Shown: positions 10,579-64,000 of the stretch, piece by piece
How positions within the stretch are numbered: the first letter of the stretch is position 1
Layout: each line of letters starts with the position of its first letter
Assembly (NCBI RefSeq): GCF_004766045.1
Contig: NZ_SPQQ01000002.1
Span: 744,001-808,000, forward strand
DNA length: 64,000 nucleotides
DNA from: Desulfosporosinus fructosivorans
Lineage (GTDB): Bacteria; Bacillota; Desulfitobacteriia; Desulfitobacteriales; Desulfitobacteriaceae
Reading direction: 5' to 3'
Made by a program: the position numbers and the translations under genes
The notes under the pieces: model-generated
What the model was told of the DNA's origin: nothing
Seen by the model: only the letters and a program-made list of their open reading frames with translations
The model's database searches: none

Positions 10579-10977
10579 TTACTCCTCATGATCATCACAG
10601 TTGCAAGTGAGATGATCATGTTGGTGTGCCAGCCCTTCTCCTCCTTTGTATTCGCGAATTATATCCAGCTGATAATTTTCCATGAGGTTGAGAGCATCCT
10701 TTACACTATAATGAGCTCCATAATATCGTGTAACCTGTGCTTGAGTTATTGGTTCAAAATCAGCTTGCTCAATGCTGCCGCAGATAAGTGCCTCACAACC
10801 CCTTTCGATGATTTTCCGGGTTATCTTAAGCTCCGAACCTTCTCTACAACCCGCATTCTTGTAAACCTCAAAACTCAAGTCATCCGTTTCTACAACCAAT
10901 AAAAATGAGCTGTTCTCATATTCTTCAGCGACCAGACTTTTTAAAGAATCCCCATTTGTAGCAATAGCTATTTTCAT
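10579..10977 (-). CDS. NifX/NifB-like cofactor-binding protein with His/Cys tail
   Basis: 132 residues. The fold of the dinitrogenase iron-molybdenum cofactor biosynthesis family is indicated by MKIAIATNGDSLKSLVAEE at the start, the central region CEALICGSIEQADFEPI, and the segment VTRYYGAHYSVKDALNLM. Small proteins of this family bind metal clusters or cofactors during assembly. The last 15 residues (HQHDHLTCNCDDHEE) are rich in His, Cys and acids, and look like a metal-binding tail. It lies 21 bp upstream of the CoA ligase-like gene in the same direction. Its location in a molybdoenzyme maturation cluster, with no nitrogenase genes nearby, suggests it carries a metal or Mo species for the aldehyde oxidoreductase; that is inference. 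Confidence 0.8.
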   Translation of the reverse strand: MKIAIATNGDSLKSLVAEEYENSSFLLVVETDDLSFEVYKNAGCREGSELKITRKIIERGCEALICGSIEQADFEPITQAQVTRYYGAHYSVKDALNLMENYQLDIIREYKGGEGLAHQHDHLTCNCDDHEE

Positions 10978-11065
10978 GATACTGCACCCTCCCTAACATC
11001 TATTTTATGTAGATTATTTAAATCCTTTGGACTTGAATTATCTCTCCCAAATATCAAAAAACTTT

Positions 11066-13117
11066 TTACACTGTAAATTTCAAGACGATATTTTTCAGCC
11101 TTTCTGATATTTCATTTGTTCCAATTCCAATGTTTACCACTTCAGTAGACTTTTGCGTAACAGAAGACACTTTCATGGCAATATTATCAGTCCCTTGCGC
11201 CGATTCGCTGGTTGCCATTGTTATTTCATTTATTGCTTGCACCAATTCTTGTATTGATAAATCCAACTGATTCGCTGTGGTGCTAAAATCGGTTACCAAA
11301 CCCTCCACATAATCAGCATCCTTATGATACTGCTCACCCGTTTCAACCATAAAATTGTAATCCTTTATCACCGTTGTATCAAGAAACTCCAGAACTTTTT
11401 CCGAGTTCTCTGTTAGGTTCTCTACGGATGCCACAACAAGTTTAGTCACATTTTGAATTTCATTGACAGCATTTTTTGAGTCCTCGGCAAGTTTCCTTAT
11501 CTCATCCGCTACTACAGCAAAGCCTCTTCCTGCTTCTCCGGCTCTCGCTGCCTCAATTGCCGCATTTAGTGCCAGAAGATTAGTTTGCGATGTAATCTGT
11601 AAAATGGAGTCTGTCAACATGTTGATTTGTTCTACTGCTTTTGCTTGCTCAATCGCCGCTTTCATGTTGATATTCACATTATGACTGACATCACTTGCCA
11701 CCTTTTGCGAATATACAGCACTTTCCTTCAGGTTCTGCGCCCGTTTATTGATTTCATTTGAAGCTAAAGCGCCCTTTTGTGCCTGCTTAGCAATGGCATC
11801 TACTGACTTTTCCAATTCAGAAGCTTGTGCACTCATTTCTTGTGCGGAAGCTGCTGATTCTTCCATAGCGGCTGAAATTTCTTGAGTGGTTGCCGAGACA
11901 TCTTCTATTTCTATATTCAGATCTTTCATGCTTGCATTTACAGTATAAACGGAATCCTCCAGATTATTTGCTTCATTTGTGATTGTTTGGACTATGCCTC
12001 GGAAGGATTTTTGCAGTTCACTTACAGACCTCATCAAATCGCCGGTCTCGTCTTTAAGATTCAAAAATTTGTGGGAAATATCCTTTGAAAGATCTCCTCC
12101 GGCAATTATGTTCAACTGCTCTGCTGCGATTTTTACCGGCTTTGAAATCCTTTTGGCCAAGAATAGAAGAACAAAAGCAGCTATTATTAAACCGATTACA
12201 GTAACGAATATGATACCAGTTCTAAGATTATTGATTTTTGATAGGTATTCATTTTCAGGCATAGTGGTTATGACGTACATATCCTGATTTTTACATTTGG
12301 CATAGGATGCAATATTTTTGATTCCTGAAATAGTGAAATATCCCGTACCTGCATCTTTGCTCTTCATTTGATTGTAAAAATCACTCACATCGCCTGTTTC
12401 AGCAGATAGATTAAGTTTTAAAACTAAATCTTTGTCTTTTGCAGCAATAACAAGACCTTTTGAATCAATCACTATTGTTGACAAATTTTGTTGCCCATTT
12501 CCGTAAACGACAAGTTCAGTCAATTTATCCAGTAATATCGGGGAACAAAAGGCTGCAAGGACTTTTCCGTCCCGGTTTACTACAGGCACTGAAAGCATTA
12601 CAATAGGTTTTTTGTTTACAGGTGATATTTCAGGATTTCCCACAACAATTTTATTCTTCATCACCTCATCGTACCAGCGCCTATTATGCTCGTCTAATAC
12701 ATAGCCTATAGACGCTTTACTTGACCCATCAATAACGACTGTCCCATTATAAACGAAGAAATAATTCTCATAGAGACCGTTTGATTCCTTGAACTTGTCA
12801 TCTGTAAACTTGGTTAATAGTTCGTAAGTGGCGTTGTTTTGATTACCCATTGCCAGTTCGTTAAAATAATCGATAACCCATGGTTGATCCGCTTCTGCTT
12901 TTGCTGTCCGCGTCAGTTGGTCAAAGGAAGATTCAACCTGGTTAATTTTTTCCTGAGTTATGGAGTTCATCGAATTCCTTACTTCATTTTCCAGAGTGAT
13001 TGTTGAATAGTAGCTTGAGTAAGCCACAACCGCAATCATTGGTACTGCCATACATAACAAGGATACCAGCAAAATTTTCCCAAATAGGCTGTTAGTAATA
13101 CCTTTAAATTTAGACAT
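11066..13117 (-). CDS. Methyl-accepting chemotaxis protein (dCache-HAMP-MCP)
   Basis: 683 residues. A membrane span at about 12-33 is followed by a large extracellular dCache-type ligand-binding region (about 40-300), a second span (about 303-323, [20 protein letters not shown]), HAMP (about 323-380) and the cytoplasmic signalling helices. The highly conserved tip [20 protein letters not shown] is intact, so it should couple to CheA/CheW. It lies within the aldehyde oxidoreductase cluster but is not a maturation protein. It may sense a substrate of the pathway, or it may have arrived with the rearrangement that left the DUF4338 fragment next to it. The start follows AGGAGG. Confidence 0.95.
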
Positions 13118-43185: not shown

Positions 43186-44064
43186 CTAAGACTGCCCAAT
43201 CATTACCGAAACTGCAGAAGCATAGAAGACATACCGACCTATGAACTCACCTACGACAACCATGATGAGAGCGAGGTAAACCACATTAACAGGTATGGAC
43301 TTTGTATTAGTCGCTTTCCCTAATCCATAGTAGAGAAGACCTACACCGACAAGAGAGAGAACCCCGTATACTACCAGGGGAAACAAGTAGCTTCCAGATA
43401 GTAGTTGCGCTGACGCTATAGATGCGGCCACTCCGCTTCCGAGTCCTGAGATGAAGACTGGAAGATAGATAAGTTGAATGATTACTGCGACTATACCAAT
43501 TAGACTGACTTTTTTAAGAATCGTGAGGATTTCCGGTGAGAGTGCACTTCCCTTTGCTCCATAAGCGATGAAGCTTGCCGCCCCCAGACTACCTAGAGCA
43601 AATGTCGTCCCAAAGAAAGCGATGTACGTATTTGCGTTATCCCAAGCTGGACGGACAGAGGTACCATAGATATTCACCATGCTAAAAATGACGAGTAGTC
43701 CGACCAGAGAGGTTAGCCATCCTAAGCCGTTACCTACAGTCTCTTTCTGATAAGCCTTATAGCTTACAAACCACAGCACGAAGAATCCCCCAGCTGTCAG
43801 AATTTCACGACTTAGCCATGATGAACCAAGGTTCAGGATGGATCGATAGGCACCCGTCGGGGTTCCCAGGTGAAAGAGCGAGAATATAAGGGCTAGCGCC
43901 ATGAGTGGCCCTACGGCTAGAAAACCGAAGCTTGTCAGACGTTTAGCTGATGGAGCATCCTTTTGGGCTAATATGGAGCGAACGAGCACGAGAAGAATAT
44001 AACTTCCGACTGCTAGCTGACAAATTAAAGTAAACATCATTAATGGCCATTCTTCAGCAAACAT
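43186..44064 (-). CDS. dmsC: DMSO reductase membrane anchor subunit
   Basis: 292 residues with eight hydrophobic spans. MFAEEWPLMMFTLICQLAVG and the segment FHLGTPTGAYRSILNLGSSW with LSREIL are diagnostic of DmsC. The subunit takes electrons from menaquinol and passes them to DmsB. GGAGG lies before the ATG. It is the last gene of torD-dmsA-dmsB-dmsC and is followed by the terminator at 43103-43139. Confidence 0.92.
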   Translation of the reverse strand: MFAEEWPLMMFTLICQLAVGSYILLVLVRSILAQKDAPSAKRLTSFGFLAVGPLMALALIFSLFHLGTPTGAYRSILNLGSSWLSREILTAGGFFVLWFVSYKAYQKETVGNGLGWLTSLVGLLVIFSMVNIYGTSVRPAWDNANTYIAFFGTTFALGSLGAASFIAYGAKGSALSPEILTILKKVSLIGIVAVIIQLIYLPVFISGLGSGVAASIASAQLLSGSYLFPLVVYGVLSLVGVGLLYYGLGKATNTKSIPVNVVYLALIMVVVGEFIGRYVFYASAVSVMIGQS

Positions 44065-44098
44065 CCATCAGGCCTCCTTTTTATCACTTGAGTAGAAT

Positions 44099-44650
44099 CT
44101 ACTTCAGGGCTTCCTTGTTGGGTTTCATTGTCAGAGATGGGTGGGTCATTCCCGAATCAGGTAAGCCCTTGATATCGGCAATATTGCCATGTTTTTTACG
44201 CAGTTCTTCTATCTCTCCGAATTCAAGAGCTCTCATTTGGCAAGCTTCTACACAAGCAGGTTGTCCCCCTGCATCAATAATATCCACGCAGAAATTACAC
44301 TTTCCGGACTTTCCTTTAGATTCAATATATTTGGGTGCTCCATAAGGGCAAGACCAAGTACACAACTTACAGCCGATGCACTTCTCCTCGTCAAACATGA
44401 CGATCCCGTCTTTCTCCCTTTTATACAGTGCACCTGTCGGACAGTTCTTCGTACATTTAGGTTCTGCACAATGATTACAGGCTATGGAGAGATTGTACGC
44501 CCAAGGTTTCGGAAACGTTCCTCCTTCGAAATTATAGACCTTTCGAAAAAGAGTCCCCACCTCCAAATTATTCTTATCATTACAGGCAATTTGACAGACT
44601 TTGCAGCTCGTACAAACTGTCATGTCATAATAAAATCCTAGTTGTGCCAT
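44099..44650 (-). CDS. dmsB: DMSO reductase iron-sulfur subunit
   Basis: 183 residues with four 4Fe-4S Cys groups: CTSCKVCQIACNDKN, CNHCAEPKCTKNCPTGAL, CIGCKLCTWSCPYGAP and CNFCVDIIDAGGQPACVEAC. This is the DmsB pattern that carries electrons from DmsC to the Mo centre in DmsA. It is shorter than the E. coli protein but has all sixteen Cys. It has GAGGTGA before the ATG and lies 15 bp after dmsA. Confidence 0.94.
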   Translation of the reverse strand: MAQLGFYYDMTVCTSCKVCQIACNDKNNLEVGTLFRKVYNFEGGTFPKPWAYNLSIACNHCAEPKCTKNCPTGALYKREKDGIVMFDEEKCIGCKLCTWSCPYGAPKYIESKGKSGKCNFCVDIIDAGGQPACVEACQMRALEFGEIEELRKKHGNIADIKGLPDSGMTHPSLTMKPNKEALK

Positions 44651-44665
44651 TTTTCTTCACCTCTC

Positions 44666-47209
44666 TTAGAAAATGATTCGTTGCGGCCATTTAACATCTG
44701 GATCAAGGGGCTTATCATACTTCTCTACCTTGACATTGCATGAATTATAACCACTATGCCCTTGCCCAGTTGCGATAGGTCCATTAAGAATCCCGGTGTT
44801 TCCAGCCTTATCTACCCCCGCTTGCTCGTCCATTTCAACCCAGGCCCCTTCTCCCAACGCCACAACGCCTGGCATAATGCGCTCCGTGACATAGGTGGGA
44901 CGGATCACGGATCCATGTCGGCTGGTTACTTTGACGATATCATTGGTTTTAATTCCTAATTTCGCAGCATCGCTGGCATTCATCCAAAATTCTTGTGGGA
45001 AAGCTTCCCTTAGCCAAGGCACATTGTCTAATGTCGAATGGGAACGTCTATTATAATGGATGGTAATAATTTGGTAATTAAAGCCATCCTTTAATCCATC
45101 CTCATACCCTTCCAACGGGGGGTCGTACTTAGGGATCGGGGATTTTGTAGTGAAGCCAATTTTTTCGATCTTCTTCGCAAGCGTATCGCAGTAAATTTCG
45201 AATTTACCGCTGGGAGTTGCTAATTTCTTTCCAACTGGATCTGCCAAGAAATCCTCAAAACTCGTAAATTCCAATTTATCACCACGAGATCTCGGGACTT
45301 GATAAATTCCCTTTTCCTTAAATTCTTGATAGGAGATGCGACCGGTCTGTGGTGTTCCCTTGGCCCCAAGCCCTTGAATATCTTCACCAGTCAAGGTTAC
45401 CAATTTTTCATAACCAGATCCGTCGGCTTTCATGACCGATGCACCTGCAAGCAGATTATACAATTGTTGTTCCTCTGAAACCGGGTTAACTATTTTGGTA
45501 TCAACGCCTAAGCGTTTAGCAATTTCCGTGACAATCCACATATCACTTTTCGCCTCAAAAAGTGGCTTAATCACTTGCGTATGATAAATGAGAATTTCAC
45601 GATTTCCCGTGAGTAGCCCTCCAAGCCTCTCCCACTGGGATGTAACTGGCAAGACTAGATCCGAATACCTGGCATCTGTGGTTAGAAACAGATTCTGAGC
45701 CACTGCAAACTCGACTTTTCTATGGGCTTTTATCCCTTGGGTTGTGCCAGCTCTTTGATTCAGAGTATGACCAAACCAGTTCCATATCATCTGAATATCG
45801 ACATTTACCTTCTTCCCTTTGCTTTCTGTATATTGTCCCTTAAGAACCGCATCCCACATCTCACCGCTATTAATGCGACTTTTCGCAATAGGGTTGATCA
45901 CTTTAGGGATGCCGTCACCTCCTGGCTGTACCAATGCTGGCCCTGCATTGGTGGCCGAGTTATGCATATTGGGACTCACTCCAGCGCCTGGTATTCCGAT
46001 ATTTCCTGTCATATAAGCAAGCGTCATCATGGCATGAGGCAAGTGTTCCCCATTATTGATGCGTGCCGGCGCCCCCCCTGAAATGATGGCGGCTGGTTTA
46101 GTCGTCGCATATTCTTGTGCAAACTTACGAATAATTTCGGCGCTAACACCACAGATTTTTGAAGCCCATTCTGGAGTTTTCGGTGTCCCGTCATACGTTC
46201 CAAGAACATAATCCTTAAAGTTCTCTTTAGGATCTGCACCCTCTGGCATATGGTCAGCGTCAAATCCGATTGTGCAATTATTTAAGAATTTCTGATCGAG
46301 TAAATTGTTTGTGAGGATATGATGAGCCATTCCTAAGATCAAAGTTGTGTCGGTTGCCGGACGAATCGGAATCCATTCGTCTCCCAAGGTTCTGGCGGAC
46401 TCAGTATATAGTGGGTCTATAACAATAAACTTCACTCCAGCCTTTTTCGCTTGTAAATAGTTATAGGTTGGAAGGCCTTGGCTAGACTGAGCAGGGTTTG
46501 CCCCCCAGAGGATAATGAGCTTTGAATCACGTAGTCTAAACCTGTCATTTCCCGAGGATGCTCCGCTATTTGGAAGTCCTGTGACGGTACTATAAACATC
46601 AGGCCATGATCCCCAGGAGACATTCCCCCAACGCTCTGTACATCCACCATAGGCATTTAGGACGCGTTGAGGCTCCATTCCGCCGCCAGAACCACCAGCA
46701 GGTGCAAAGAAACTCGCATTTCCATACTTTTCCTTGATTCGCTTAAGCTCACTCGCCATGATATCCAGCGCTTCATCCCACGAAATACGAACCCACTCGT
46801 CCTTACCTCGGAGTTCCTTTTTGCCGCCCCCAGGCTCCCAGTTTTTCCGCTTCATCGGGTATTTGAGTCGATCGGCTCCTAGAACCATTTTCCGGTGGGA
46901 ACGTCCCCGAGCACATCCTCTTTGCTGTGGAAAGTCTGGGCTATCCGGGTGGGTATCGTCCGTTTTCTGGCGAATGACAACCCCTTCTACCACATAGGCC
47001 TTATTTAGGCAACGACCCCCGCAATTGTGCCAACACGCGGCAGTGATCCATTCCCCTTCCTTATTCGCTAACTCACTTGCCTTTTTAGCATCCACTGAAA
47101 CAAGTCCACAACCGGGCAAAGTTGCCGCGGCGGCTAGCGTAGCCGTCATGCCCAGAAAGGAGCGACGACTGACAGCGTAGTTTTTGGCTTTCTCGATGAG
47201 ATTGGCCAT
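44666..47209 (-). CDS. dmsA: DMSO reductase-family molybdopterin catalytic subunit (Tat-exported)
   Basis: 847 residues from the ATG at 47209, after GGGAGGTG; a TTG six codons upstream is inside the ribosome binding site. The twin-arginine signal is SRRSFLGMTATLAAAA, followed by GCG. A CWHNCGGRCLNK Cys set with RGCARG forms the FS0 4Fe-4S cluster. The Mo-binding region has GNVSWGSWPDV, with a Ser at the usual metal-ligand position of DmsA, and later WGANPAQSSQG and HPD-type bis-MGD contacts. Export to the outside of the membrane is expected. The oxide substrate (DMSO, TMAO, or another S- or N-oxide) cannot be named from sequence. Confidence 0.9.
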   Translation of the reverse strand: MANLIEKAKNYAVSRRSFLGMTATLAAAATLPGCGLVSVDAKKASELANKEGEWITAACWHNCGGRCLNKAYVVEGVVIRQKTDDTHPDSPDFPQQRGCARGRSHRKMVLGADRLKYPMKRKNWEPGGGKKELRGKDEWVRISWDEALDIMASELKRIKEKYGNASFFAPAGGSGGGMEPQRVLNAYGGCTERWGNVSWGSWPDVYSTVTGLPNSGASSGNDRFRLRDSKLIILWGANPAQSSQGLPTYNYLQAKKAGVKFIVIDPLYTESARTLGDEWIPIRPATDTTLILGMAHHILTNNLLDQKFLNNCTIGFDADHMPEGADPKENFKDYVLGTYDGTPKTPEWASKICGVSAEIIRKFAQEYATTKPAAIISGGAPARINNGEHLPHAMMTLAYMTGNIGIPGAGVSPNMHNSATNAGPALVQPGGDGIPKVINPIAKSRINSGEMWDAVLKGQYTESKGKKVNVDIQMIWNWFGHTLNQRAGTTQGIKAHRKVEFAVAQNLFLTTDARYSDLVLPVTSQWERLGGLLTGNREILIYHTQVIKPLFEAKSDMWIVTEIAKRLGVDTKIVNPVSEEQQLYNLLAGASVMKADGSGYEKLVTLTGEDIQGLGAKGTPQTGRISYQEFKEKGIYQVPRSRGDKLEFTSFEDFLADPVGKKLATPSGKFEIYCDTLAKKIEKIGFTTKSPIPKYDPPLEGYEDGLKDGFNYQIITIHYNRRSHSTLDNVPWLREAFPQEFWMNASDAAKLGIKTNDIVKVTSRHGSVIRPTYVTERIMPGVVALGEGAWVEMDEQAGVDKAGNTGILNGPIATGQGHSGYNSCNVKVEKYDKPLDPDVKWPQRIIF

Positions 47210-47233
47210 TAACGGTACACCTCCCAATAATTT

Positions 47234-47992
47234 TTAATTTGTCTTTAATCCTATGCCTTCTATATCTAAAAGCTCAGCAAGGGCTTCGAGATCTAACCTT
47301 AAGAATCCATGCAGGATCCTTGACATTCCGCGATAGAATTCAGTGTCTGAATGCTGGCAGACATTTTGCTGAAACTCGGGTACCCAACGCAGTAGATGTT
47401 CCTGCAGAAACCTTTTCTGATTTTCCAAGATGTCTAGTAGCTCGTGTTCATTCTTCTCGTATTTCTCTAAAACCATCACGGACAGTTTATACATAAAGTC
47501 CAGTTCAAGACCTAAGTGATCATCGGCTTCATGTTGAAAATGCTTAGGCAAGAATGCATACTTCAGATAAGCAAGTCTGACTTTCAGGGTCTCCTCCTGA
47601 AAAAGCAAGCGTTCCTTATTGAGATAGGCTGACTCCCAAGCAGGAGCCTGTAATTCGTAGGGTCCAATAAACAGTCGAGTATAGTCCCAGTGCAAGCGAT
47701 TATAGATTGTTTCTCCGACTGATTCATATTGCATTAAATCGCTATGAACCTGACGAATCCCCTCCTGAATCTCCCCTTCTTCCTCAGAAAAAGGAAAGGA
47801 ACCGATAAGATTGTCCTTAGACAAAAGCTTAAGGAACTCGTGGCTAGGTTCTTCCAGAAACGACCGTCTGAGTATATCGTACGCAAAAATCCTCGCTTCG
47901 AGCAGAGGCCTAATCTTTGCCAAGCCTCTTAATTGAGTCTCATGACTTAGATTGGGATGCTCAACGGTCTCTATTCGATCATTTGTTAACAT
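47234..47992 (-). CDS. TorD/DmsD-family molybdoenzyme chaperone
   Basis: 252 residues, all-helical. LLEARIFAYDILRRSFLEEP at the start, YTRLFIGPYELQAPAWESAY in the middle and EADDHLGLELDFMYKLS (the family signature E-x2-DH-x2-x-EL-x-FM) mark a TorD-type chaperone. Its job is to bind the Tat signal of apo-DmsA and hold it for cofactor loading. It is the first gene of the dms operon, with AGGAGGAG before the ATG and 24 bp before dmsA. Confidence 0.93.
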   Translation of the reverse strand: MLTNDRIETVEHPNLSHETQLRGLAKIRPLLEARIFAYDILRRSFLEEPSHEFLKLLSKDNLIGSFPFSEEEGEIQEGIRQVHSDLMQYESVGETIYNRLHWDYTRLFIGPYELQAPAWESAYLNKERLLFQEETLKVRLAYLKYAFLPKHFQHEADDHLGLELDFMYKLSVMVLEKYEKNEHELLDILENQKRFLQEHLLRWVPEFQQNVCQHSDTEFYRGMSRILHGFLRLDLEALAELLDIEGIGLKTN

Positions 47993-55932: not shown

Positions 55933-57858
55933 ATGTTTGATCAACTTTTTAGTCCATTTAGCATTCGAGGCAAAACCATCAAGAACCGCTGTACAGTCCC
56001 GGCGATGGTAACAGATTTCTGCAACGAAGACGGTACTGCAACTGAGCGTTACATCGCATATCATGAAGAAAAAGCAAAAGGTGGCTGGGGGCTAATTATA
56101 ACCGAAGACTATAACGTGGACCCTCTCGGTCACGGCTTTAAAGCAACTGCTGGTCTTTGGAATGATGACCAGATCGAAAGTCACAGCGAATTACCAAAAC
56201 GTGTTCATAAATATGGTGCGACGATACTGGCACAGATTTATCACTGTGGTCGCCAAACAAATTCAGGCGCCATTGATGGTCTTCCACGATCTTCATCTGC
56301 GATTATGTGTCCATTCGGCGATGAAATACCAGTCCCCTTAACAACTGAAGAAGTTAAAGAAATGGTTTGCAAGTATGGCGATACCGCACTTAGGGCTAAA
56401 AAATGTGGTTTTGATGGTGTTGAAATCCACGGTGCTCATGGTTACTTGATTACGCAATTCCTTTCGCTATATTCTAACAAACGAATTGATGAATACGGCG
56501 GCAACTTCTGGAACCGTACAAGATTTGCACGAGAAATCATCAAAGATATTCGCGAAAAGTGCGGTGAAGATTTCATCATTGGAATGCGTATTTCGGCTGA
56601 TGAATTTGTTGAAGGTGGGCTTACGATTGAAGATAATAAGGCAATCGCGCGAATGATGGAAGCAGAAGGTCTTGATATCATTCACGTTTCTGTTGGAAAC
56701 TACCTTTCTGTTGATCTAAATGTAGCAAGTTCACACTCAAGCCATGGTTGGTTTACTGACTGGGCAAAAGCAATAAAAGACGTTGTCAGTATTCCAGTGA
56801 TTACTGTGTCGAGAATTAATGATCCCTTTTTAGCGGATAGTATCTTAGCATCCAATAAAGCAGACTTCATTGCCATGGGTAGAGCTTCGCTCGCAGACCC
56901 TGAAATGCCCATTAAAGCTCAAGAAGGCCGTTTTGAAGATATTCGTCGTTGTATTGGCTGTAACGATGGCTGTATTGGCACATTATTTAACGATGAACCA
57001 ATTCGATGTGTTTTGAATCCGGAGCTTGGCCTTGAGTACGAAGGTGGTATTCAACTCGCTGAAGTAAAGAAAAATATTACCGTAGTCGGTTCCGGACCTG
57101 CAGGTCTATACGCTGCAATAACCGCTGCTAAGGCCGGTCATCAAGTTACAGTTTATGAGAAGGGCGAACACGCTGGCGGTCAATTCTATATTGCCGCAAT
57201 CCCACCAACAAAAGGCGAAATCACCGACTTTATTGTATGGCAACTGGCACAGTGTAAAAAACTAGGCGTCGACATAAAATATAATACCGAAGCTACATTG
57301 GAATTAATTAAGAAAACAAATCCGGATTCTATTATTCTTGCCTCTGGTTCGGAGCCAATACTTCCGCCTATCTCTGGTCTTAAAGAAAATTCCAAGACCA
57401 CCTTTGCTAAGGATATTCTTGACGGAAAGGTAAAACCGGGATCACACTGCGTAATCATCGGTGGTGGGCAAGTCGGTGCAGAAACAGCTCATTTCCTATC
57501 ACAGATGTTAAAAGGCGTTACAGTGGTTGAGATGAAAGATACGATTGCTAGTGATGCACCGCTTGCAATTCAGTGGCATTTGACGAGAGCTCTTAAAGAA
57601 CGTAATGTTATAATGTTAACAGGCACAAGCGTTGTACGCGTTAATGAAAATGCTGTTATTGTCAAAGATAGTCATGGTATTGAAACAGAACTCCCTGCCG
57701 ATACCATCATCGTAGCCGCAGGTTACCGTGCTTTTAATCCATTAGCAGAAGAACTTGCTGCGGCTAACGTTAATGTTCAAGTTATCGGTGATGCCAAGCA
57801 AGTACGTAATGTTCTTGCCGCAACAACAGAAGGATATCTTGCTGGAAAAACTGTTTAG
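55933..57858 (+). CDS. Old-yellow-enzyme/2,4-dienoyl-CoA reductase family oxidoreductase (FMN, 4Fe-4S, FAD)
   Basis: 641 residues in three parts. An FMN barrel (about 1-330) has FSIRGKTIKNRCTVPAM, QIYHCGRQTN and the active-site FDGVEIHGAHGYLITQFLS. A 4Fe-4S site is CIGCNDGCIGTLFNDEPIRC (about 340-360). The FAD/NAD(P)H part begins ITVVGSGPAGLYAAITAAKA and has a second fold at HCVIIGGGQVGAETAHFLS. This is the build of FadH, trimethylamine dehydrogenase and many anaerobic enoate/NAD(P)H-dependent C=C reductases. The natural substrate is unknown. It is co-transcribed with a small ABM protein, controlled by the divergent TetR or a further regulator, and its start has AAGGAGG. Confidence 0.92.
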   Translation: MFDQLFSPFSIRGKTIKNRCTVPAMVTDFCNEDGTATERYIAYHEEKAKGGWGLIITEDYNVDPLGHGFKATAGLWNDDQIESHSELPKRVHKYGATILAQIYHCGRQTNSGAIDGLPRSSSAIMCPFGDEIPVPLTTEEVKEMVCKYGDTALRAKKCGFDGVEIHGAHGYLITQFLSLYSNKRIDEYGGNFWNRTRFAREIIKDIREKCGEDFIIGMRISADEFVEGGLTIEDNKAIARMMEAEGLDIIHVSVGNYLSVDLNVASSHSSHGWFTDWAKAIKDVVSIPVITVSRINDPFLADSILASNKADFIAMGRASLADPEMPIKAQEGRFEDIRRCIGCNDGCIGTLFNDEPIRCVLNPELGLEYEGGIQLAEVKKNITVVGSGPAGLYAAITAAKAGHQVTVYEKGEHAGGQFYIAAIPPTKGEITDFIVWQLAQCKKLGVDIKYNTEATLELIKKTNPDSIILASGSEPILPPISGLKENSKTTFAKDILDGKVKPGSHCVIIGGGQVGAETAHFLSQMLKGVTVVEMKDTIASDAPLAIQWHLTRALKERNVIMLTGTSVVRVNENAVIVKDSHGIETELPADTIIVAAGYRAFNPLAEELAAANVNVQVIGDAKQVRNVLAATTEGYLAGKTV

Positions 57859-59183: not shown

Positions 59184-60407
59184 TTATAATAATTGTATGA
59201 TTTGTGCCTTGAGTTTAGCTTTATCCATAGTACATCCTAGTTCTTTAACCTTCTTCCCTTTATCTAAAACAATGACGGCAGGGACAGCTTTTATCTCATA
59301 CTTTTCCGCAAGGTTTTTCTTGGTAGCTAAGTCCACTTTAACAATTTTATAGTCTTCATTATGCTCTCGCTGAAGCTCCTCCATTAGGGATGAAAACTCC
59401 AGACTTTCTGTGTTCGAGGCATTGAAGAACACCAGTAAAACCTTTTTATAGCTATTAGCGATATCGGTCTTGAAGGCATTGAGTTCTTCAATGTAGCGCT
59501 CAGCAGCTACAGCTGCCGTAGCCCCATCTCCCGCCGCCGAAACAACTTGTCTTAAATATTTAACTCGATTATCCCCAACCGCATAAACGCCATTCAGATT
59601 CGTTTCCATCAGGTCATTGACAGGGATATATCCCCTCTTGTCCATCTCGACGCCACTCTCTTTAAGATATTGCGTAGAGGGAACCATTCCAACAAAGAAA
59701 AATACACCCTGGCATTCTAATTCTGAAGAACCGCCTGTTTTTAAGTTCTTTATTTTAACCCCTTTAACACTTTCTTCGCCCAATACTTCTTCCACCGTGG
59801 AGTTCCAGATAAACTCCATCTTTTCTTTACTAAACGCGCGTTCAGCACTGACTTTATTGCAATCCAGGATTCCTTTATCGTGGAGTACAATAACTGTAAC
59901 TTTTTTCGCAAACTTGGTAATATACATACCTTCCTCGATGGCTTGGTCGCCGCTTCCAATGACAACGACGTCTTCTCCTTTGAAGAATTCAGCATCACAG
60001 GTGGCGCAATACGCTACTCCACTACCTTGGAGCCGTTTCTCACCAGGGATATTCAGGAGCCTTGGCTCACTGCCGCAGGCAATGATCACAGCCTTAGCTG
60101 TAAATTCCTTCACCTTTTTGGTTTTGATCACTTTATCTTCTTGGGAAAAATCGGTACTCACGACTACATCTCTTAAAAACTCCACGCCAAAGCTCTCAGC
60201 ATGTTTCTTAAAGTCAAGCATGAGATCAGAGCCACTAATTTGTCCGTAACCAGGGTAATTAACAATTTCACGTGTCGTATTCACTAATCCGCCGACGGTT
60301 CCTTTGTTGATGATCAGAGTTTTAAGCTTAGCCCTACCCCCATAGATAGCAGCGGATAATCCAGCGGGTCCCCCGCCAATAATTATTAAATCATACGTAT
60401 TAGCCAT
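59184..60407 (-). CDS. Thioredoxin reductase-like protein with extra C-terminal thioredoxin fold
   Basis: 407 residues; normal TrxB is about 310. The reductase part has the FAD loop LIIIGGGPAGLSAAIYGGRA, the redox pair CATC (about 136-139), the second cofactor fold VVVIGSGDQAIEEGMYITKF and the closing VYAVGDNRVKYLRQVVSAAGDGATAAV. From about residue 318 a thioredoxin fold follows: VLLVFFNASNTESLEF, KIVKVDLATKKNLAEKYEIK then AVPAVIVLDKGKK, with the cis-Pro intact. The WCxxC site is replaced by NASNTE, so this domain cannot do thiol exchange and may be a docking part. It is downstream of a thioredoxin gene (21-bp gap) and an arylsulfate sulfotransferase gene. Confidence 0.9.
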   Translation of the reverse strand: MANTYDLIIIGGGPAGLSAAIYGGRAKLKTLIINKGTVGGLVNTTREIVNYPGYGQISGSDLMLDFKKHAESFGVEFLRDVVVSTDFSQEDKVIKTKKVKEFTAKAVIIACGSEPRLLNIPGEKRLQGSGVAYCATCDAEFFKGEDVVVIGSGDQAIEEGMYITKFAKKVTVIVLHDKGILDCNKVSAERAFSKEKMEFIWNSTVEEVLGEESVKGVKIKNLKTGGSSELECQGVFFFVGMVPSTQYLKESGVEMDKRGYIPVNDLMETNLNGVYAVGDNRVKYLRQVVSAAGDGATAAVAAERYIEELNAFKTDIANSYKKVLLVFFNASNTESLEFSSLMEELQREHNEDYKIVKVDLATKKNLAEKYEIKAVPAVIVLDKGKKVKELGCTMDKAKLKAQIIQLL

Positions 60408-60427
60408 TTTCTCATTTCACCTCATGA

Positions 60428-60754
60428 TTATGAATTCAGCACGTCTGTAATTTTTTCCTTGACGTCTTCTTCCTCAACCTTACTTGCTAATTTTCCTTGG
60501 TATTCGCCATCTTTAAAAAAAAGAATTTGAGGAACGCCTTTTAAGGAGAATCTTTGGTATAAGGCCTTGTCTTCCTCAACATCGACATAATAAAAGCTAA
60601 ACTTACCTTCGAATTGCGGCTGTAAATCTTCTAAAACGGGCACAACACCCTGGCAGACATGACAGCTTTTTCTTGAAAAGATAACTAAACAGGGTTCTCC
60701 TTTATCGTAAATCACTTCTTCAAAGCGGCCCGAATTCAATTTTTCTAACGACAT
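60428..60754 (-). CDS. Thioredoxin-like protein (SCHVC)
   Basis: 108 residues of thioredoxin fold. The redox motif is KSCHVCQGVVPVLEDL, so CHVC replaces CGPC; VDVEEDKALYQRFSLKGVPQ with the cis-Pro and ILFFKDGEYQGKL follow. The atypical pair suggests a different redox potential or a dedicated partner, most simply the reductase 21 bp downstream. AAAGGAG lies before the ATG. The arylsulfate sulfotransferase gene is 205 bp upstream in the same direction. Confidence 0.9.
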   Translation of the reverse strand: MSLEKLNSGRFEEVIYDKGEPCLVIFSRKSCHVCQGVVPVLEDLQPQFEGKFSFYYVDVEEDKALYQRFSLKGVPQILFFKDGEYQGKLASKVEEEDVKEKITDVLNS

Positions 60755-60959
60755 TTTTTCTTCACTCCTTTAAAATCGTGATTTTTCTAACCGATTGGAT
60801 TTTAACATCTTTGGACAGGAGAAATACTCCCCTACAGTAACAGATTTGTTATTATCTATTATCTGTCTACTTTTAAGGGAGCATACAAATATCTGAGAGA
60901 CTAATCACCACGTCGAATTGCATATATAGTGTTCGAAGGAACTAAGTATGCATACGCTC

Positions 60960-62843
60960 TTAAAGTTTTGCTGAGAATTGAGTATCGTATCGTTTATTAT
61001 CTATATTTAAATAAATATTATAGTCACCCGCTAATCGTTCCCTACTAACATAGAATTGGAAATCATTATCGTTTTGCTCCTCAAAAGAAACACACGCTGC
61101 GGTAACATCATGAACTACTGTCGGCACTAAGTAGAACTTCGAACCGTTTTCACCTTTTAATTCAAGAAAGACTTCGGATCCTTCCTTAAATGTTGCTCGA
61201 AGAGCCAATCTATCTTCTTCTAGTATTAACGAAAAGTTGTGTTTTGCCGGAACTTCTCCCTCAACGTCTTTAAATTTAACTTTGAATCCAATCTCTGGAG
61301 TTACTCTAAATCCACCTAAGAATTTACCTTTACCAAGCGCAAAGTTAGTCGTTTCGTCATATAACGGAAGTCTTCTTGCTCGATAATAATTACCGCCTTG
61401 AACTTTCAATTCGTATTTGACTTCATCATTTTGTACTTCAACAGTGATGGATTTTAACGTTAAATGGATATGCTCGTCTTTATATTTATTCAGGAGCATT
61501 GCGCCTAAACCATCGGTATGTTTCCCTCTATAGGTGGCAATACCACCAGAGTGAATCAAATAGTGTCCTTCACTATAGTAATCGACGTTACAAATATAAG
61601 GGGAATAAAATTCTGCTCCTCTTTCTTTACCATACTGCCAAACTTGTTCGATTTCCATTTTGGCGGTGTCAATTCTATAGATAACCCCTCTGGAGAAGTT
61701 GTCGTCGGGTGAAACTCTTGTAGCTTCGTTTTTAGACCGATAGGTTCCGTTGTCAAAGACGAATACATCTCCATTGGGTAGAATTCTTGCGGCATGTTGC
61801 TCGTACTGCCAGTCAAAATCACCTTTAGTTACGTTTTTAAAGAAATATTTTTGCCAATCTTCTCCCCAACCTTCTGGGTCTCCAATAATCCAGTTTAATT
61901 TTGCAGTATCATAATCGATGTTAATAATCGCATCTTTGTGTCTGCCGGACATTGTAATAGAATTAGTCGGTTTGTCATACCAAACCGAGTTGTTGTGGAA
62001 CCAATCATGGTGGTTCCAATCTCCCGCGTCCCCGCTTTCTCTTAGTAACATATTAAGAAGATCCCATGATTTAACGACTTCCCCGGTTTTTCTATCAATT
62101 TCAACAACATAGTCCTCAACAGATTCATTGAAGTCATTATCCGAAGCTGCTAAAATGTTGCCATTTTCTAGCTCTATTGCATCATGGTGAAACCCACCCG
62201 GCAACCGATATTCTGTATAGATTTTGCCGCTTAAGTCCATTTCCATTAGTCCAACCGTGTAGTAGGGTTTTTGGATTGTCCGGTAAGACGTTACCAAAAG
62301 CCTTCCGTTTTCTAATCGTTTAATATCCCAGCTTTGCTTATTTGTGATAACCCATCGCAAATCACCAGCATAATCAAATCCGACCGTTTTGCTAGATTCA
62401 ATTAAAGGAGTAGTCGTTGAGATCATCATTAGGTCTTTCCCAAAATACTCTGATGTGGTATGGCAATATAGAGCTTTATTGACATCTAATTCTTCAATTT
62501 TAATTATAACTTGTGACGTTTTACCATTGCCAAGGGTTATAAGCACAATGTTTTCATAATTATCATATAATCCATAAATCGGTAATACATGCTCTTTTGC
62601 ACTAGCAAAGGTATGTGTTAGATCACCTTCTACTGCTTTACCTTTTACAGTTATTTGTGCTGTAGTTTCTTCGTCTGTGATAAAACAAATGACTGCAGCA
62701 AGTGGATTAATCAAATATGGATTTTCGACAACAAGTAGGTTTTCTAGAGTATAATTTCCTGACCTAAGCTCAGCCAAAAACTTTTCTTCGGACTCGGATT
62801 GTAGTGTAATCAAATGTTGTTCTGTTTCTAAATAATTGCTCAA
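60960..62843 (-). CDS. assT: PAPS-independent arylsulfate sulfotransferase, apparently cytoplasmic
   Basis: 627 residues, TTG start with AAGGAG. This beta-propeller enzyme moves a sulfate from one phenol ester to another through a sulfo-histidine. Key regions are GGFHHDAIELENGNIL, WNHHDWFHNNSVWYD with SITMSGRHKDAIINID (His and Arg of the site) and QYEQHAARILPNGDVFVFDN (the likely active His), about residues 218-372. An extra N-terminal beta domain (1-110) and C-terminal beta domain (460-627) are present. No signal peptide is seen (MSNYLETEQHLITL), unlike the exported enterobacterial enzyme. The divergent LysR gene beside it is broken. Confidence 0.9.
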   Translation of the reverse strand: MSNYLETEQHLITLQSESEEKFLAELRSGNYTLENLLVVENPYLINPLAAVICFITDEETTAQITVKGKAVEGDLTHTFASAKEHVLPIYGLYDNYENIVLITLGNGKTSQVIIKIEELDVNKALYCHTTSEYFGKDLMMISTTTPLIESSKTVGFDYAGDLRWVITNKQSWDIKRLENGRLLVTSYRTIQKPYYTVGLMEMDLSGKIYTEYRLPGGFHHDAIELENGNILAASDNDFNESVEDYVVEIDRKTGEVVKSWDLLNMLLRESGDAGDWNHHDWFHNNSVWYDKPTNSITMSGRHKDAIINIDYDTAKLNWIIGDPEGWGEDWQKYFFKNVTKGDFDWQYEQHAARILPNGDVFVFDNGTYRSKNEATRVSPDDNFSRGVIYRIDTAKMEIEQVWQYGKERGAEFYSPYICNVDYYSEGHYLIHSGGIATYRGKHTDGLGAMLLNKYKDEHIHLTLKSITVEVQNDEVKYELKVQGGNYYRARRLPLYDETTNFALGKGKFLGGFRVTPEIGFKVKFKDVEGEVPAKHNFSLILEEDRLALRATFKEGSEVFLELKGENGSKFYLVPTVVHDVTAACVSFEEQNDNDFQFYVSRERLAGDYNIYLNIDNKRYDTQFSAKL

Positions 62844-63141: not shown

Positions 63142-64000
63142 ATGCGTGTCAGCGACTTAAAATTTTTAATAGAATTGTCTCATTCAAAGTCGATTACACT
63201 AACGGCTGAGAAAATGCATATTTCCCAACAAGGTCTGAGCCAAATGATTACGGATTGGAGCAAGAGCTTGATGTTATTTTATTTCATCGGAGTCGACAGG
63301 GAACGACCCTAACTGAGGCTGGCCAAAAGACCGTTCTCACAGCAAAGGGGATTAGTGAAAAGTATAATGATTTAAAGACTGAGTTAGAGCTGCTTGGCCA
63401 GCAGCAAAAGTCCCCGATCGTGGGAGATCTGACCCTTTTCATTCCCATAATTCAGGTACAGTAGTTTTGCCCAAGGCTCTAAAATTGTTTAAGTCTAGAG
63501 ATTCGAATGTTAACTTAACGCTTAAAGAAAGTTCGCCTGTAGAAACCGTTGCTCGTATTAAGGATGATCCTGCAGTGGTAGGGCTTATAAATTTTCCAGA
63601 AGCTTATTACCAGGATCCTGATAAGCAAATTTTGTTTCCTGTCCCGAGTTAGTGTATAAGAAACTTTTACGCGATGATTTAATCGTCTGTATTCCGAAAT
63701 CCTGGTCATTAAGCAAAGATCAACTTGCTTTGATCAATGAATTAGTAAAACGGCCAATGGTCTATTTCGATACAAAACAATTCGATGAAATTATATCATT
63801 AATTTTTCAGGCGGGCGATCAGTCACCCAAGGTATTTTTAAAAACACTTAATAATGAATTATTTCGTCAAACGATCATTGATGGGTTAGCTATGGGTGCT
63901 CTTTCTTCGCTTGAGGTGAGTGATTATCGGCTTTTGAAAGAGTGCACTATTCAGTCAGATCTGCGCTTAAAGCTCGTTTTTACCTGGGTGAGTTCAGCGA
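63142..64000 (+). pseudogene. LysR-family regulator with three frameshifts, runs past the window end
   Basis: From the ATG at 63142 the frame is MRVSDLKFLIELSHSKSITL then TAEKMHISQQGLSQMIT, a LysR winged helix. At about 63250 it moves to the frame LEQELDVILFHRSRQGTTLT. At about 63448-63455 it moves again, to NSGTVVLPKALKLFKSRDSN. At about 63645-63652 it moves a third time, to LVYKKLLRDDLIVCIPKSWS, which stays open to the end of the window. Each step is explained by a single missing base. The protein cannot be made as one chain, unless the assembly has errors. It is divergent from assT and was presumably its regulator. Confidence 0.85.

Follow-up and report, generated by a model that had tools for sequence, protein, structure and literature searches.

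A thioredoxin-linked arylsulfate sulfotransferase of Desulfosporosinus fructosivorans and its relatives: a probable organosulfate reductase system

Arylsulfate sulfotransferases (ASTs, here AssT) follow a ping-pong mechanism through a sulfohistidine, and the donor is not hydrolysed by the Eubacterium A-44 enzyme (PMC13426309), so that AssT needs an acceptor. According to the sections considered here of a 2026 review, most ASTs have no identified natural acceptor, and their physiological roles are poorly understood (PMC13426309). In the E. coli enzyme, the sulfuryl group is carried by His436, and the active site also includes His252, His356, Asn358, Arg374 and Thr501 (PMC13426309). The AssT of E. 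coli CFT073 is periplasmic and its gene is linked to dsbL and dsbI, the products of which are oxidising partners that form its disulfide. In the present work we analyzed a 64,000-nucleotide stretch of the Desulfosporosinus fructosivorans genome (NCBI RefSeq assembly GCF_004766045.1, contig NZ_SPQQ01000002.1, positions 744,001 to 808,000; hereafter the window), in which an AssT gene is accompanied by a thioredoxin (Trx) gene and a thioredoxin reductase (TrxR) gene. This locus shares with that of E. coli CFT073 the AssT fold, the catalytic residues and the link to thiol-redox genes, but its AssT has no visible signal peptide and no cysteine-bearing insertion, and its partners are reducing. Our analysis indicates that the three proteins probably form an organosulfate reductase system, in which AssT would catalyze a reductive desulfation that releases sulfite.

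Three other systems show partial similarity to the one proposed here. The reduction of adenosine 5'-phosphosulfate (APS) or 3'-phosphoadenosine 5'-phosphosulfate (PAPS) by Trx-dependent enzymes passes through S-sulfocysteine. Fusions of reductase and thioredoxin exist, for example in Mycobacterium leprae, where a single polypeptide joins TrxR to a downstream Trx domain; the fused domain of the window protein, however, lacks CxxC, and a CxxC-containing Trx is encoded separately next door. In the respiration of taurine and isethionate, the C-S bond of the sulfonate is cut by lyases and sulfite passes to Dsr or Asr. Here, too, an organic sulfur oxyanion would feed sulfite to Dsr or Asr, but by S-O cleavage with thiol reduction instead of C-S cleavage. 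The assimilatory, CysH-type APS/PAPS reductases resemble it in depending on Trx (PMC10322725) and in turning a sulfuryl donor into sulfite, a likeness that concerns the proposed mechanism only. The donor in our case would be an aryl or choline sulfate and not an ATP-activated sulfonucleotide, and the enzyme would be a beta-propeller sulfotransferase or a protein of the alkaline-phosphatase superfamily; no match to the PAPS-reductase family PF01507 was found among the three window proteins.

The three genes follow one another on the minus strand in the order AssT, Trx, TrxR, with intergenic gaps of 205 and 20 nucleotides, and comprise the following features:

60960..62843, minus strand: AssT of predicted cytoplasmic type, 627 residues, TTG start codon, PF05935 match of 358.4 bits
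60428..60754, minus strand: dedicated Trx, 108 residues, PF00085 match of 57.8 bits
60653..60664, minus strand: CHVC motif of Trx (residues 31-34, preceded by SRKS), read from the sequence
59184..60407, minus strand: TrxR with an extra C-terminal Trx-like domain, 407 residues, TIGR01292
59997..60008, minus strand: CATC redox motif of TrxR (Cys134 and Cys137), from the sequence and an alignment of 28
59187..59453, minus strand: C-terminal Trx-like domain of TrxR without CxxC (residues 319-407), from PF00085 and the predicted structure
59406..59423, minus strand: NASNTE in place of the expected CxxC (TrxR residues 329-334), from the sequence alignment

This arrangement, including the altered motif of the extra domain, had been described in an initial annotation of the region and was borne out by profiles and sequence, as was its remark that a reducing Trx pair of cytoplasmic type replaces the DsbL/DsbI pair of the periplasmic E. 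coli enzyme (PMC13426309). A simple scan of the minus strand of the 205-nucleotide gap detected no terminator-like or sigma-70-like site, which makes co-transcription plausible.

In addition to PF05935, the window AssT matches the N-terminal Ig-like domain PF17425 (65.9 bits). Its residues H220, H283, N285, R301 and H350 align with E. coli His252, His356, Asn358, Arg374 and His436, respectively, and are identical in all 38 aligned AssT proteins (the window and named loci). The named loci are the best 80 of 152 that were found by scanning named genomes with an AssT alignment. The position of E. coli Thr501 is occupied by isoleucine in all 38 (I417 in the window); this position was not used as a family criterion, as the published residue list describes one enzyme (PMC13426309). 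The next residue, 418, is cysteine in 35 of the 38 and serine in 3, and C584 is invariant in all of them. The predicted structure (predicted local distance difference test score, pLDDT, 89) has E. coli ASST as its best solved match (E ~1e-27, TM-score 0.57-0.65). No signal peptide was seen, and by a crude test 97 AssT segments of the named loci have no hydrophobic N-terminus (maximum 11-residue mean hydropathy of 1.26). The cysteine-bearing insertion that contains the structural disulfide of the E. coli enzyme is missing from the alignment of the window AssT. Judged by its residues, the window AssT is catalytically complete, and it is of predicted cytoplasmic type. A role of the redox partners in oxidative folding, by analogy with DsbL/DsbI, was rejected on account of the absent insertion and signal peptide.

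A 1664-residue protein encoded in genome G348 (L288:7571-12562) contains a pair of AssT domains, to which inspection by eye adds a leader and C-terminal repeats resembling S-layer homology domains. This frame was considered as proof of a natural fusion and rejected: it is an AssT tandem, neither Trx nor TrxR is encoded in the 19 kb examined around it, and its genome has no dsrA match, so that it serves as a contrast case.

The window TrxR scores 348.8 bits against TIGR01292 (cut-off 343.45) and matches Pyr_redox_2 of Pfam, and its C-terminal part matches PF00085 over residues 310-403 (E 6.8e-11). In an alignment of 28 TrxR proteins from the window, the genus and relatives, CATC is invariant, and none of the 28 has a CxxC at the site of the altered motif, where one holds a single cysteine. 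Residues 319-407 are predicted with pLDDT values of 73-88 (in blocks of ten) and the order beta-alpha-beta-alpha-beta-beta-alpha; the TrxR core was modelled poorly (mean pLDDT 63), and the 50 PDB structures listed as matches are ordinary TrxR. The alignment and the prediction identify the C-terminal domain as a conserved, redox-dead thioredoxin fold, which probably acts as a docking or dimer element that ties TrxR to its Trx. The retention of this dead domain in 28 of 28 proteins, together with the wide recurrence of the gene linkage described below, argues that the pairing of AssT, Trx and TrxR is more than chance.

The window Trx falls below the cut-off of the canonical model TIGR01068 (51.6 versus 96.8 bits); it has the CHVC motif and lacks the Trp that precedes it in canonical members. 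This Trp is found in none of the 115 readable Trx proteins linked to AssT or to a second enzyme, c2, which is described below; one more protein has no first Cys. These Trx proteins belong mostly to two types, SRKxCHVC and S[KT]TCGPC. The protein without the first Cys is an AssT-linked Trx of Desulfosporosinus sp. SRJS8 (L148:5582-5890), which reads RKNGHVC. A further type, AERCNIC, AKRCEIC or AERCTVC, is present in L235, L248, L249 and L285, with TrxR nearby in L235, L249 and L285 and c2 nearby in L235 and L285.

From the genes, motifs, linkage and co-occurrence observed, we infer each of the following chemical steps, as well as the role of the dead domain. H350 of AssT would take the sulfuryl group from an aryl sulfate, and the phenol would be released. 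The acceptor of this group would be a thiolate, that of Cys31 in the CHVC Trx or that of Cys418 in AssT itself, and the product an S-sulfocysteine. The second Trx thiol would attack the S-sulfocysteine sulfur and expel sulfite, leaving a disulfide, which TrxR would reduce again with NADPH. Sulfite would finally be reduced by Dsr in the window organism or by Asr in Lachnospiraceae. The net reaction would be R-OSO3- + NADPH -> R-OH + SO3(2-) + NADP+, and the ATP sulfurylase step would be bypassed.

The neighbourhoods of the 80 named AssT loci were then compared. They come from Desulfosporosinus, Desulfotruncus, Desulfovibrio, Desulfobulbus, Desulfofustis, Desulforhopalus, Hungatella, Enterocloster and other Lachnospiraceae, i.e. 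from Bacillota and Desulfobacterota, and they overlap in part with the other locus sets used below (same strains or species), so that the counts are not additive. Linkage was accepted on the same strand, within 2.5 kb of AssT for Trx and within 3 kb for TrxR. Both genes are near AssT in 48 loci, Trx alone in 5, TrxR alone in 2 and neither in 25. Where at least 3.5 kb were available on both sides (n=51), the corresponding numbers are 34, 5, 0 and 12. Several gene orders occur (AssT-Trx-TrxR, AssT-TrxR-Trx and TrxR-Trx-AssT). Profile-free clustering of the neighbours also gave TrxR (45) and Trx (42) as the commonest, followed by a transporter (38), regulators (24 and 17), AsrB (15), AsrA (14), AsrC (14) and hemC (12); owing to simple picking of open reading frames, these counts are slightly below the profile counts. 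Transporters of modelled kinds are present at 62 of the 80 loci, and DASS-like ones at 42. In a tree of 114 distinct TrxR sequences, 39 sequences, all AssT-linked, form one clade with a support of 1.0; the long type with the dead domain falls in the other clade, alongside unlinked paralogues. In genome G000 alone, 23 TrxR-like matches were found, and several belong to the long type.

A sulfite reductase is part of some of these clusters. At 15 of the 80 loci, 14 of which also have Trx and TrxR, AsrA is encoded no more than 8 kb from AssT. The order in Hungatella hathewayi (L155) is DASS-like transporter, TrxR, Trx, AssT, AssT, AsrA, AsrB, AsrC, siroheme-synthase and hemC, and similar arrangements are observed in other Lachnospiraceae. 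The AsrA, AsrB and AsrC of this locus score 440, 334 and 372 bits (NCBIfam cut-offs 323, 289 and 324), and the transporter scores 40.8 bits, under the TIGR00785 cut-off. Since Asr is encoded beside AssT and none of the genes identified there is for an enzyme of sulfate activation, the likely product is sulfite.

The same clusters bear on another explanation, in which the Trx pair merely keeps a cysteine of AssT or c2 (C418 or C584 in AssT) reduced, and the sulfuryl group is moved between phenols with no sulfite formed. The invariance of C584 and the frequent cysteine at 418, directly after the Thr501-aligned active-site position, are in its favour. We consider it unlikely, given that 418 is serine in 3 of 38 proteins and that the explanation leaves unaccounted for both the AsrABC and siroheme genes in the cluster and the co-occurrence with dsrA described below. 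Moreover, purified ASTs from relatives of this clade are active in vitro, with no mention of Trx in the sections of PMC13426309 and PMC11576661 considered here. These enzymes, from Desulfosporosinus sp. HMP52 and Hungatella effluvii, are treated there as in vitro tools that sulfate phenols, alcohols and amines; they come from the same strain or species as our loci L100, L125 and L133 and may be the products of these gene copies. Trx adjoins AssT in both HMP52 loci (L100 and L125), with TrxR found in L125, and the H. effluvii locus L133 contains TrxR, Trx and AsrABC with AssT.

The partners of the CHVC Trx extend beyond AssT. In relatives, the long TrxR is mostly preceded directly by Trx, and these two by AssT, c21 or c2. 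The c21 proteins are AssT-like, of 495 residues (e.g., L039:11022-12509, PF05935 83 bits), and adjoin AssT, c2 or the Trx pair. At L061 (G000:C11), positions 10976-11315, another AssT of G000 is followed by a frame-broken Trx and c21; the stretch examined there contains no TrxR. The c2 proteins are PF01663 members of about 685 residues, encoded upstream of the CHVC Trx and often beside choline genes. For 78 CHVC Trx genes, located in stretches picked mostly by TrxR or Trx and not by the partner, the same-strand partner at most 4 kb upstream is c2 in 42, AssT in 14, AssT with c21 in 3 and c21 in 2 (61 of the 78); 2 are at contig ends and 15 are without a partner. TrxR lies within 4 kb of 63 of the 78. 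Eleven of the 15 partnerless genes are in a draw of 398 genomes of the phylum, in genomes that hold c2 elsewhere, and L080 and L083 have c2 farther downstream; some of the lone copies adjoin bacterial microcompartment (BMC) genes and some adjoin unrelated genes. The initial annotation had asked whether a similar Trx pair occurs without assT in most relatives. This is so in part, with 42 of the 78 CHVC Trx genes by c2; a further 17 are by AssT, and the chemistry of c2 seems parallel to that of AssT. The same pair also serves c2, and the reduction more likely takes place on the sulfuryl group than on the released phenol.

Within 7 kb of c2, Trx was found at 46 and TrxR at 40 of 56 loci, although many of these loci had been chosen by Trx or TrxR, so that these numbers are no test of linkage. 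At 31 of the 56, genes related to choline or quaternary amines (CutC, BMC, MttB, corrinoid protein or BCCT) lie within 7 kb of c2; in L047, c2-Trx-TrxR has a BCCT transporter on one side and a CutC/CutD microcompartment operon on the other. Thr67 of c2 is kept, and D20, D424, H428, D481, H482 and H616 are invariant in 12 c2 proteins; we take these residues to be the metal site of the alkaline-phosphatase superfamily. As an economical guess from this context, the substrate of c2 may be choline-O-sulfate, which is favoured because a phosphate ester would need no thioredoxin. Upstream of c2-Trx-TrxR in L064 (13227-14714) and L065-L073, an MttB-like gene is split into two pieces (332 and 144 residues), the pattern expected of a TAG-containing (pyrrolysine) methyltransferase, which this gene may encode.

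At the genome level, the CHVC Trx (E <=1e-20) and c2 (E <=1e-60) occur in the same 17 of the 398 genomes (Fisher test 3e-30, which ignores relatedness), and the CHVC Trx lies within about 2.2 kb of 14 of the 25 c2 matches listed. These data can be set against a purely historical linkage, in which Trx-TrxR hitch-hikes in mobile or duplicated operons without a mechanistic tie to AssT or c2. The 15 lone or differently placed CHVC Trx genes among 78 and the absence of the pair at 25 of 80 AssT loci would fit such a history. It appears very unlikely nevertheless, as TrxR proteins of two lineages and Trx proteins of two main types are encoded in several orders next to AssT, in both Bacillota and Desulfobacterota, and as c2 and the CHVC Trx share the same 17 genomes even where they are not neighbours.

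The 17 genomes are also united by dissimilatory sulfite reductase. All of them have dsrA over the cut-off, as compared to 7 of a set of 56 other genomes chosen by handle number (2e-11). A full-length AssT (best PF05935 E <=1e-80) was found in 14 of the 398 genomes, 12 of which belong to the 17; 13 of the 14 have dsrA, the exception being G348, so that one of the two further AssT genomes has it. AsrC does not separate the groups across the 398 genomes, and G000 has dsrA and no AsrC match. ATP sulfurylase (TIGR00339, sat) and aprA are over the cut-off in the same 7 of the 17 genomes, and the other 10 have Dsr without either. In the clostridial genomes with Asr-linked AssT, TIGR00339 (sat) and CysD (E 1e-20) were each found in 0 of 14, and TIGR00339 was present in the 3 Desulfobacterota checked. 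These absences suggest that in both groups sulfate would be of little use for respiration and sulfite useful.

The constant company of dsrA could alternatively mean that the Trx pair serves sulfite reduction itself, by acting on a DsrC trisulfide or by providing electrons to Asr, with AssT supplying sulfate or sulfite in some other way. We regard this as quite improbable. A copy of the Trx-TrxR pair accompanies each sulfuryl enzyme, and a genome has several such copies; the dsrA match of G000 lies on contig C35, which contains none of the long TrxR genes; and dsrA is present in the absence of c2 and the CHVC Trx in 7 of the 56 comparison genomes. The Asr clusters, which are not known to use DsrC, carry the pair as well.

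The initial annotation further proposed that the pair may serve to reduce the phenol once it is released, or act on another target. Transporters by AssT and c2 have as their best match the aromatic acid/H+ symporter TIGR00895, under its cut-off, and a flavoenzyme resembling old yellow enzyme (OYE) is, by eye, encoded about 1.3 kb past the AssT module of the window (55933-57858, plus strand); similar proteins are found in L280, L282 and L148, and in the first two, as in the window, near the module. This proposal now seems hardly credible and the phenol-reduction reading was rejected. An OYE-like protein is present in 1 of the 80 named loci, and no phenol- or other ring-reducing family was noticed, by eye and partly by profile, among the neighbour clusters of at least 5 of these loci. 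As far as the genes show, the c2 loci with choline genes involve no phenol.

The reductive desulfation by AssT with sulfite as its product is thus the reading that we prefer for the window locus. For the wider system we lean, with somewhat less assurance, towards a general, ATP-free respiration of sulfate esters, in which AssT (for aryl sulfates) or c2 (probably for choline-O-sulfate) would be interchangeable, a private Trx would be the sulfuryl acceptor and sulfite would go to Dsr or Asr. It is important to mention the points that weigh against these readings. The AST acceptors described in the sections of PMC13426309 and PMC11576661 considered here include no thiol. The scan alignment was built mostly from Trx-linked AssT, so the linkage fractions may be high for the whole family, and even so 25 of the 80 loci have neither Trx nor TrxR near AssT. 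Among the CHVC Trx genes, 15 of 78 have no AssT, c21 or c2 within 4 kb upstream, and a nearby CHVC Trx is missing for 11 of the 25 c2 matches listed. The gene context is what suggests that c2 cleaves a sulfate ester rather than a phosphate ester. As dsrA follows lineage, its presence in 17 of 17 genomes partly reflects shared ancestry. Five of the 10 genomes without sat have aprA-family matches under the cut-off, and 2 have CysD-like matches under the cut-off. Several of the 14 clostridial genomes with Asr-linked AssT are metagenome-assembled genomes of untold completeness, so that the absence of sat and CysD from them is weak.

The surroundings of the window locus include a regulator divergent from assT:

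63142..63999, plus strand: LysR-family regulator with an interrupted frame, read by eye (a 116-residue fragment is listed)

By eye, the frame breaks near 63255 and apparently once more downstream, so this gene is apparently a pseudogene or an assembly error; intact LysR relatives adjoin AssT or c2 in other loci. An operon at 43186-47992 (minus strand) resembles, by eye, a molybdoenzyme of the dimethyl sulfoxide reductase family with iron-sulfur and membrane subunits and a chaperone.

In the open-access literature, with preprints outside the scope, no account of a Trx-coupled AssT or of organosulfate respiration was found in titles and abstracts, and an earlier description elsewhere is possible. 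The word "sulfotransferase" occurs nowhere in the main text of the D. hafniense DCB-2 genome paper (PMC3306737) and is absent from a 2026 review of gut sulfide (PMC13232883).

Our results suggest that sulfite-reducing and related anaerobes strip sulfate off organic compounds as sulfite for respiration, with no ATP spent. If this is true, a thiol would be the so far unidentified physiological acceptor of AssT, and the system would represent a sulfur respiration that bypasses ATP sulfurylase and provides sulfite to organisms without known sulfate activation. AsrABC is more prevalent than dsrAB in gut genomes, according to the part of PMC9016944 considered here; the proposed system would offer a substrate source for gut AsrABC and connect the removal of aryl sulfates and choline sulfate with the formation of sulfide. 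Aryl sulfates from the host or from drugs could then be turned into gut sulfide by Hungatella, Enterocloster and other Lachnospiraceae.

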